From assembly GCF_900111015.1 (NCBI RefSeq), contig NZ_FOFS01000010.1, positions 62,001 through 126,000 of the forward strand: a stretch of 64,000 bases of DNA. Reading direction: 5' to 3'. Below, in pieces: positions 34,552 to 64,000 of this stretch. The DNA comes from Solimonas aquatica. Lineage in GTDB: Bacteria; Pseudomonadota; Gammaproteobacteria; Nevskiales; Nevskiaceae. The notes below the pieces were generated by a model. The model searched no databases, was not told where the DNA came from, and saw only the letters and a list, made by a program, of their open reading frames with translations. A program made the position numbers and the translations under genes. Numbering within the stretch: the first letter of the stretch is position 1; each line of letters opens with the position of its first letter.

Positions 34552-35287
34552 CGTAGGGCGGCTTGGGCGCGATAGCGCCAAAAGCCGCGATGGCTTTTCT
34601 GTTTGTTGCTTGGTTTGTTTCTTGATCCAGCCTTGGTTTCGTGCGCCTGTCGGCGCCCGAGGTACTTCTCTTTGCTTGTGCAAAGAGAAGTACCCAAGAG
34701 AAAGCACACCCTACGCCTCGCATCCGTCGCCGCTGTCGCGGCGGCGGAAGCCTGCGCTGCTCGCGTGCTCGGGGCCGTTGCAGACGCGCCATCCCTGGCG
34801 CGGCTGCAACTGAATCGAACTTCCTGTTCGATTCTCCCACTGCGCTCGCTGCGCTGCTCGGTGCGAGGCAAAGGGGGGGCAAGTCAAAAGCAACAGCGCA
34901 GCAACGCTCATCGCGCGAACCTGCTTTGCTGTGGCTTTTGACTTTGGGGTCCCCGTCTCTGGCGCTGAGCTGTGCGGCGAGCGCAGGGGAGAGCCGGACA
35001 TGGAAGTCCGGCTCAGTTGCAGCCACGCCAGGATGGCGTGTCTGCAACGGCCCCGAGCACGTTGCACAGCGAAGGCACCGGCGAAGCCGGCGCCAGAGCC
35101 GGGGTGTGCTTTCTCTTGCTTACTTCTCTTTGCACAAGCAAAGAGAGCAGAAGCGACCTACGGGGGAGCTTCTGCGGCCGCCGCCGAAGGGCGGTGGAAG
35201 AAGGCAATAGATCGAGAGACCAAGCTGGCCAAAAAACAGCCAAGCCCTGGCGGGTTACGGCGCTCTCGCGCCCAACCCGCCCTACGG
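34552..35287. repeat. ~736-bp compound inverted-repeat element, copy 1
   Basis: The ends are 29-bp inverted repeats with two mismatches (starting CCGTAGGGCGG and ending CCGCCCTACGG), themselves folding into hairpins. Sub-terminal hairpins CTTCTCTTTGC/GCAAAGAGAAG, a CGCCATCCCTGGCG-type hairpin, and a 9-bp hairpin recur in mirrored order on both halves. The left 9-bp stem is GAATCGAAC/GTTCGATTC and the right is GAGCCGGAC/GTCCGGCTC. It lies 26 bases beyond the stop of the RND pump gene. Reading frames across it on both strands look like composition artefacts. Orientation matches copy 4 and is opposite to copies 2 and 3. Confidence 0.9.
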
Positions 35288-49409: not shown

Positions 49410-50125
49410 CCGTAGGGCGGCTTAGGCGCGAAAGCGCCGTAAGCCGCCGGGCTTTGCTGTTGCTTGCTTCGCGTGATGCTCAATCTATTGCCTTCTTCCA
49501 CCGCCCTTCGGCGGCGGACTTACTTCTCTTTGCTTGTGCAAAGAGAAGTAAGCAAGAGAAAGCACACCCCGGCTCTGGCGCCCGCTGCGCGGGTACCTTC
49601 GCTGTGCAACGTGCTCGGGGCCGTTGCGGACACGCCATCCCTGGCGTGGCCGCAACTGAGCCGCCCTTCCTGGGCGGCTCTCCCCTGCGCGCGCCGCACA
49701 GCTCAGCGCCAGAGACGGGGACCCCAACGTCAAAAGCCACAGCAGCTTCACGCGCGAAGCTCTGCTTTGCCGTTGCCTTTGAACCCCCTTTGCCTCGCAC
49801 CGAGCAGCGCAGCGAGCGCAGTGGGAGAGCCGGACACGAAGTCCGGCTCAGTTGCAGCCGCGCCAGGGATGGCGCGTCTGCAACGGCCCCGAGCACGTGA
49901 GCAGCGCAGGCTTCCGGCGCCGCGACAGCGGCGACGGATGCGAGGCGTAGGGCGTGTTTTCTCTTGGGTACTTCTCTTTGCACGAGCAAAGAGAAGTACC
50001 TCGGGCGCCGAAGGGCGCACGAAACCAAGGCTAGATCGAGAGAAAGGCCCGGCAGAGAACAGACCAGCAAAGAACAGCAAAGCCACGGCGGGTTACGGCG
50101 CTATCGCGCCTAACCCGCCCTACGG
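49410..50125. repeat. ~716-bp compound inverted-repeat element, copy 2
   Basis: It has the same architecture as copy 1 but in opposite orientation. Terminal inverted repeats start CCGTAGGGCGGCTTAGGCGC and end with the near complement. Hairpin modules CTTCTCTTTGC/GCAAAGAGAAG occur near both ends. The 9-bp covarying hairpins are GAGCCGCCC/GGGCGGCTC (left) and GAGCCGGAC/GTCCGGCTC (right). It fills the space between two converging nif transcription units (orf196 and modD), 44 and 20 bases from their stop codons. Confidence 0.9.
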
Positions 50126-54471: not shown

Positions 54472-55188
54472 CCGTAGGGCGGGTTAGGCGCGTGAGCGCC
54501 GTAACCCGCCGCTTTGCTTGTGCTGTTTGTTGCCGGATTTGTCTCTCGATTCATTGCCTCATTCGTCCGCCCTTCGGCGGACGACTCACTTCTCTTTGCT
54601 TGTGCAAAGAGAAGTAAGCAAGAGAAAGCACACCCCGGCTCTGGCGCCGGCTTCGCCGGTGCCTGAGCTGTGCAACGTGCTCGGGGCCGTTGCAGACACG
54701 CCATCCCTGGCGTGGCTGCAACTGAGCTGCCCATCCTGGGCAGCTCTCCCCTGCGCTCGCCGCACAGCTCAGCGCCAGAGACGGGGACCCCAACATCAAA
54801 AGCAACAGCAGCTTCGAGCACGAAGCGTCGCTGCGCTGTGCTTTGCTGTGGCTTGTGACCTACCCCCCTTTGCCTCGCACCGAGCAGCGCAGCGAGCGCA
54901 GTGGGAGAGCCGGACAGGAAGTCCGGCTCAGTTGCAGCCGCGCCAGGGATGGCGCGTCTGCAACGGCCCCGAGCACGCGAGCAGCGCAGGCTGCCGGTGC
55001 CGCGACAGCGGCGCCGGATGCGAGGCGTAGGGCGTGTTTTCTCTTGGGTACTTCTCTTTGCACGAGCAAAGAGAAGTACCTCGGGCGCCGAAGGGCGCAC
55101 GAAACCAAGGTCAGATCGAGAACAACACGAAGCAACCAACAGCAAAGCCCGGCGGGTTACGGCGCTCACGCGCCTGACCCGCCCTACG
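54472..55188. repeat. ~717-bp compound inverted-repeat element, copy 3
   Basis: Same family and orientation as copy 2. The left end CCGTAGGGCGGGTTAGGCGC folds with GCGCCGTAACCCGCC into a hairpin, and the right end is its near complement. Modules in order are CTTCTCTTTGC/GCAAAGAGAAG, a GGCGCCGGC-type hairpin, TTGCAGACACGCCA/TGGCGTGGCTGCAA, 9-bp GAGCTGCCC/GGGCAGCTC, a central part, then mirrored GAGCCGGAC/GTCCGGCTC and further hairpins. It is 39 bases from the stop of the DegT-family gene, the last gene of the nifB operon, and 46 bases before the SIR2-like start. Confidence 0.9.
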
Positions 55189-63409: not shown

Positions 63410-63497
63410 AGCAAGCGGCGCTTTTTATTCATGCTGTAGCTCGTCTGGCGGCTTGCGCGCACCAGTGCTGTAAGCTGTCTGGCCCTGCTGTTGTTGC

Positions 63498-64000
63498 TTA
63501 GGCGCGTGAGCGCCGTAAGCCGCCATGGTTTTGCTGTTGCTTCTGGGTTTTTTGCTCGATCTGGCCCTCGTTTCGTGCGCCTTCGGCGCCCGAGGTACTT
63601 CTCTTTGCTCGTGCAAAGAGAAGTACCCAAGAGAAAGCACGCCCTACGCCTCGCATCCGTCGCCGCTGACGCGGCGCCGGCAGCCTGCGCTGCTCGCGTG
63701 CTCGGGGCCGTTGCAGACGCGCCATCCCTGGCGCGACTGCAACTGAGCCGGACTTCGTGTCCGGCTCTCCCACTGCGCTCGCTGCGCTGCTCGGTGCGAG
63801 GCAAAGGGGGTTTAAAAGCAAAGCCAAAGCAACAGCAAAGCGACGCTCATCGCTCGAAGCTGCTGTGGCTTTTGACTTCGGGGTCCCCGTCTCTGGCGCT
63901 GAGCTGTGCGGCGAGCGCAGGGGAGAGCCGCCCAGGAAGGGCGGCTCAGTTGCGGCCACGCCATGGATGGCGTGTCCGCAACGGCCCCGAGCACGTTGCA
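63498..64000. repeat. Compound inverted-repeat element, copy 4 (cut by window end)
   Basis: Same orientation as copy 1. The left terminal hairpin CTTAGGCGCGTGAGCGCC is present but the outermost ~10 bases CCGTAGGGCGG are missing. The CTTCTCTTTGC/GCAAAGAGAAG hairpin, the CGCCATCCCTGGCG hairpin and 9-bp stems GAGCCGGAC/GTCCGGCTC (left) and GAGCCGCCC/GGGCGGCTC (right) are visible. It continues past the window edge. It lies 88 bases downstream of mop. Confidence 0.88.

Follow-up and report, generated by a model that had tools for sequence, protein, structure and literature searches.

The 64-kb stretch of the Solimonas aquatica draft genome that we analysed (the window, on contig C13; the draft comprises 4.43 Mb in 31 contigs) contains a 736-bp repeat, W1, that recurs within the window. 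W1 is flanked by a PhoH-like gene, on that gene's start side, and by an RND transporter gene, on its 3′ side, the two genes being arranged in tandem on the minus strand. Four copies had been predicted from the sequence, and a BLAST search of the window with W1 indeed retrieved three more, W2, W3 and W4, at 84–88% identity; in reverse complement, every window copy matched itself and the others at ~75–77% over most of its length. W4 extends beyond the window, its full extent being C13:125496–126150. As also anticipated, the complete copies lie shortly behind genes, with W1, W2 and W3 starting 26, 20 and 39 bp, respectively, past a stop codon, in gene calls from a codon-usage method for which two window genes served as the seed, where single distances may err by a start codon. 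The copies in the window and the parts of W1 are listed in Table 1.

Table 1. Element copies in the window and anatomy of copy W1 (window coordinates; a point marks features given no strand).
Feature	Position	Strand	Remarks
Element copy W1, 736 bp	34552..35287	+	Reference orientation
Left GTAG-tagged REP hairpin, outer cap	34552..34590	+	From sequence; also solo and in shorter elements
Left spacer, T-rich, nearly A-free	34591..34621	+	25 copies: A 2%, T 47%; 64.5% identity
Palindromic module ACTTCTCTTTGCTTGTGCAAAGAGAAGT, most widely shared part of the family	34664..34693	.	
TwoAYGGAY (RF01731) match, left half	34771..34838	-	55.5 bits, cut-off 43
Variable centre	34878..34934	.	Inverted or partly so in about five other copies
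TwoAYGGAY (RF01731) match, right half	34943..35091	+	58.7 bits
Right copy of palindromic module, TTCTCTTTGC...GCAAAGAGA	35115..35146	.	
Interchangeable module AGAAGCGACCTACGGGGGAGCTTCTGC	35147..35176	.	Elsewhere in left arm, both arms or neither
Right spacer, A-rich, nearly T-free, mirrors left spacer	35217..35249	+	
Right outer cap, GTAG-tagged REP hairpin in inverse orientation to left cap	35250..35287	-	
Element copy W2	49410..50125	-	Convergent gene pair; empty site in relative G005
Element copy W3	54472..55188	-	Tandem gene pair; empty site in relative G005
Element copy W4 (= L015)	63496..64000	+	Runs beyond window end to C13:126150

Each end of the element is a GTAG-tagged imperfect palindrome (CAAYCGTAGGGCGGGTTAGGCGCGNNAGCGCCGTAACCCGCC), the two being in inverted orientation, and this REP cap is followed inwards by a spacer of ~30 bases, an arm of small hairpins in fixed order and the variable centre. 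The inverted terminal hairpins of the original prediction are thus present, but they are ~38–43 bp rather than 29 bp long and of GTAG-tagged REP type; similarly, its near mirror image stood in that the same module series occupies both arms in mirror order, but not in detail, the arms not being exact copies of each other. The REP type of the terminal hairpins, the mosaic nature of the element and the internal Rfam motif TwoAYGGAY had been overlooked. With the covariance model of that motif (RF01731), every window copy and many relatives scored above the gathering threshold, and the folding energy was −531 versus −315 in shuffled sequences (z = −28). Among 25 copies, identity was 97% in the inner blocks, 86–93% in the arms, 84–87% in the REP caps, 71% in the centre and only 64.5% in the spacers. 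Since the caps are so much better conserved than the spacers adjoining them, they must be constrained, and these comparisons indicate that caps and core are under constraint, the spacers mainly in their composition. The spacers contain almost no A (on the other side, almost no T) despite wide sequence variation between copies.

The genome also contains the GTAG hairpin of the caps as a solo unit and at the ends of shorter elements of 245, 273, 293 and 393 bp. Deletion derivatives have their junction at the internal palindrome, the 245-bp form being the remnant expected from recombination between two internal ACTTCTCTTTGC...GCAAAGAGAAGT palindromes. In the 393-bp REP-capped element (L100, about 585–670), a different GTAG-type repeat, GTAGCCCGGATGCAGCGAAGCGGAATCCGGG, replaces the usual core.

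A search of the whole draft genome, the copy count that the original prediction had called for, found 25 near-complete copies (655–762 bp) and ~18 truncated ones, and we put the total at about 35 non-coding copies of ~700 bases each. The truncated copies mostly stop at contig ends, and the element is therefore a main cause of breaks in this assembly; such repeats explain many contig breaks, and also spurious ORFs, in genomes of this kind. Fifteen of the 25 full copies lie between convergent genes, 10 between tandem genes and none between divergent genes, against a window background of 5 convergent, 43 tandem and 6 divergent pairs (Fisher P = 4e-6), with stop-to-element distances mostly of 12–110 bp. 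Between tandem genes the two element orientations are equally frequent (5 vs 5). A tail-to-tail bias is known for repeats of this sort, where it was read as reflecting the least harmful place (PMC2718517), and has also been described for REPs (PMC3733652). Some intergenic gaps seem to gather unrelated repeats: the junction occupied by copy L022 also has C-rich repeats in S. aquatica and S. marina (L071 2828–2924, L120 2820–3530).

Long ORFs are present on both strands of the element. However, six of these that we tested had no Pfam match, substitutions across copies showed no codon-phase bias and 63 of the 67 indels in the core shift the frame, so that a protein-coding reading was rejected, in agreement with the earlier view that no believable protein or transposase lies inside. 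Two findings that might have overturned the original prediction, pieces of a known insertion sequence and gene-like codon constraint, were both looked for, and neither an insertion-sequence or protein domain nor such constraint was found in the element. Nor could a target-site duplication, previously described as not obvious, be detected by permutation test in 16 copies (0.75 bp vs 0.73 bp in permutations, P = 0.51). The copies are dispersed and inserted in 3′-end and intra-operon gaps, with target duplication undetectable. Terminal inverted repeats, dispersal and deletion derivatives would also be expected of a fragment or MITE of a classical insertion sequence, but we hold this origin to be very unlikely, given the lack of a target duplication and of any transposase or domain inside, the absence of element matches from the plasmid, phage and viral-contig collections searched, and a core that is common to lineages whose ends differ. 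Among the loci examined, no parent insertion sequence with matching ends was found.

The local hairpins of the element covary. We counted 23 pairs changed on both sides, and 112 double-change cells, a number that none of 500 shuffles attained (30 in shuffled data); the signal resides mainly in the core hairpins and is weak in the REP caps. Covariation alone is no proof of function, because template-guided correction within hairpins could also produce such changes. Wobble events in the strong hairpins comprised 12 G-T and 11 A-C, and this lack of strand preference argues for DNA hairpins or for use of both strands. It also bears on the structured RNA at transcript ends that had been offered as one option and that would here correspond to an extended TwoAYGGAY RNA transcribed from one strand. 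The strong covariation, the RF01731 scores in each window copy and many relatives and the strong 3′-end location agree with such an RNA. Yet we judge it unlikely, for the RF01731 matches lie on opposite strands of one element, the covariation is strand-neutral, both orientations occur relative to tandem genes, several copies sit inside operons and no sigma-70-like promoter was found in W1. Like the TwoAYGGAY RNA candidate, each element half has a match above the gathering score; unlike a lone RNA, the motif is here a module of a mirror-symmetric DNA repeat, on both strands. The data suggest that TwoAYGGAY is, in these bacteria, a mobile DNA repeat module rather than a free-standing RNA.

The mirror order of the modules and the extreme folding energy could likewise point to a chromosome-organising giant palindrome acting as a cruciform. 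Complementarity between the two arms of a copy was, however, not above that between arms of different copies (permutation P 0.10–0.91; the one exception, with P 0.011, concerned the REP loop part only), and variation in the left arm is independent of that in the right. Since pairing between the arms is not maintained, the element is not selected as a giant cruciform, an interpretation that we rejected. In the relative G013, eight of the nine copies on its 3.46-Mb contig C1 (L137–L145) are within about 340 kb of dnaA (1,297 kb), as might befit a chromosome-organising role, but no clustering near dnaA was seen in G024 or G036, and we regard this role as most improbable.

Variation among the copies proved to be mosaic. 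Across the 25 copies, linkage between variant sites drops to the shuffled level beyond ~40 bp, and 81–86% of distant site pairs fail the four-gamete test, all four combinations being present. Hairpin types are found in either arm, one 29-base hairpin module occurring in the left arm, the right arm, both or neither, depending on the copy, and the centre appears inverted in about five copies, two of which are clearly confirmed by alignment score. Draft misassembly is not the cause, since G013, nearly closed in two contigs, shows the same mosaicism, each of the four possible combinations of two cassettes being found in its copies. Hence, while the local hairpins are held paired by compensating changes, their variants are freely recombined between copies and between arms, which makes the element a plain case of rampant module shuffling between dispersed non-coding repeats.

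An element match was found in 52 of 100 relatives, and the signature module in 4 of 398 sampled Pseudomonadota, S. aquatica being counted among the four. Within Solimonas the distribution is all-or-none: four species (G002, G004, G005, G010) gave no element match at all and the others many. In an rpoB tree, the six element-bearing Solimonas species form one clade, four of the five members of its sister clade are without the element and outgroup genera have it. The existence of many-copy and zero-copy species makes gain, loss and function directly testable. Comparison of empty and filled sites, which the original prediction had proposed, identified clean empty sites in relatives. In G005 the site of L022 is empty, as are those of W2 and W3; there, the neighbours of W3 are ~27 bp apart and those of L022 (read as branched-chain amino-acid transport genes in a sequence-inferred annotation) overlap, so that these S. 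aquatica copies lie inside what are operons in other species. The gap between glgB- and glgX-like genes (names inferred from sequence) holds an element in S. aquatica and S. soli and is 7 bases long in S. marina. Such empty sites, tight operon gaps included, show gain or loss. At copy L021 (L071 17469–18185), synteny with G005 and S. marina breaks exactly at the element.

The other Solimonas species inspected have a core of ~500–560 bp without a GTAG cap, and the G013 copies end in a different inverted terminal repeat, so the caps do not define the family. It is the core, not the REP caps, that recurs in other Solimonas and in family members, sometimes behind the same gene. The gap between an rlmD-like and a CYTH-domain gene holds an element in S. 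aquatica, S. marina, S. terrae, S. flava and S. variicoloris; S. aquatica, S. flava and S. variicoloris also have one immediately upstream of flhB. Identity is nevertheless 84–88% among copies of the S. aquatica genome and at most 64% at the same site across species, in a comparison where orientation is ambiguous for a few symmetric copies. Sharing of sites combined with clustering by species has one of two explanations: concerted evolution of copies that stay in place, or insertion that recurs at favoured sites.

The first of these would suit an element that serves the host at transcript ends, kept at fixed sites by selection and homogenised within each genome by gene conversion, by analogy with rRNA genes, which undergo concerted evolution. 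It might act in two-way termination, in protecting 3′ ends, or as a site for a protein or for gyrase at the meeting point of convergent transcription. We consider this account, the main rival of the reading favoured below, possible though less than probable. The 3′-end bias, the rlmD-like/CYTH gap filled in five species (despite an identity that is greater within the genome than between species at that site) and the contrast between core blocks (92–98% identical) and the spacers of the same element speak for it, and A-free, T-rich spacers running inward from both ends after a G+C-rich hairpin resemble a two-way terminator. On the other hand, the T-rich tract does not directly adjoin the foot of the hairpin, the four Solimonas species named above do without any match, copies lie within operons (W3, L022, glgB–glgX), where a terminator would harm, and gene conversion alone does not explain the REP caps gained by all S. 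aquatica copies. A hairpin-cassette family both fixed and shuffled, with a transcript-end function retaining the sites and recombination swapping modules and flipping the centre, strikes us as rather doubtful; if true, it would represent concerted evolution of non-coding, non-rRNA DNA in bacteria.

On balance, we favour a giant, mosaic, non-coding REPIN/BIME-like element that is non-autonomous, has spread by insertion and has been reshuffled through recombination; it looks like an apparently unnamed and unusually large relative of REP/REPIN repeats. The large non-autonomous element was the best supported of the three options in the original prediction, the copies being dispersed and non-coding, with clean empty sites and inverted GTAG-REP ends. 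The original prediction knew of no named family with this build, and a text search of open-licence papers found no published description of the element or its signature module. REPINs have GTAG ends, hairpins and compensatory changes and measure ~70–110 bp (PMC3116915). With those of P. fluorescens our element shares the inverted pair of GTAG-tagged imperfect palindromes, variable spacers and an extragenic location (PMC3116915), mostly between convergent or unidirectional genes, as well as hairpins with compensatory changes, here mainly those of the core. It departs from them in its size (655–762 bp, with short forms of 245–393 bp), in its long conserved core of other hairpins and, REPINs being RAYT-mobilised, in that no RAYT was found in the S. 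aquatica genome. BIMEs similarly combine REP units with other motifs in mosaic arrangements at extragenic gene 3′ ends, but here a non-REP core is laid out in mirror order, REP is restricted to the outer ends and variants assort freely. The P. fluorescens repeats R0, R2, R6, R26 and R200 are also non-coding, some with inverted-repeat ends, and show a tail-repeat-tail bias (PMC2718517); with described lengths of up to ~350 bp, they are shorter than our element. Under the favoured reading, the REP/REPIN/BIME class would come to include units of ~0.7 kb whose core is conserved and not of REP type.

Some observations count against this REPIN/BIME-like reading. Caps that are absent or different in other Solimonas species do not define the family, conservation is highest in the core rather than at the ends, and the presence of a core behind one gene in five Solimonas species resembles retention more than random insertion. 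A Y1_Tnp (PF01797) search gave no match in S. aquatica, nor any in S. soli (G003), and a correlation between RAYT and element was rejected, both genomes having many copies. Near 20 RAYT loci of relatives no element REP was found, the exception being one GTAGGGCGG hairpin, of another type, at L051. Given the unit size and the negative RAYT results, we do not claim a REPIN proper. As a REPIN/BIME-like element, the unit would spread as non-autonomous DNA, a single strand of which folds into hairpins, and may have been mobilised in trans by a RAYT/IS200-like (Y1, HUH) enzyme recognising the GTAG caps or core hairpins, an enzyme presumably now lost from the S. aquatica strain or present in unrecognised form. 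Later recombination between copies would reshuffle modules, both as ectopic gene conversion and at the internal palindrome, where it could delete or flip the centre. Selection against gene- and promoter-breaking insertions would then account for the 3′-end bias, possibly with side effects on transcript ends.

Among further Gammaproteobacteria, G357, G452 and G380 show the mirror design again. In G452, the centre holds an inverted GTAG pair and other GTAG-type hairpins form the outer edge, a layout that suggests nesting of palindromes; we take it as a lead only, because chance alone yields many GTAG hairpins in GC-rich DNA, where our energy scan, with 24 background hits in 34.5 kb, is not discriminating.
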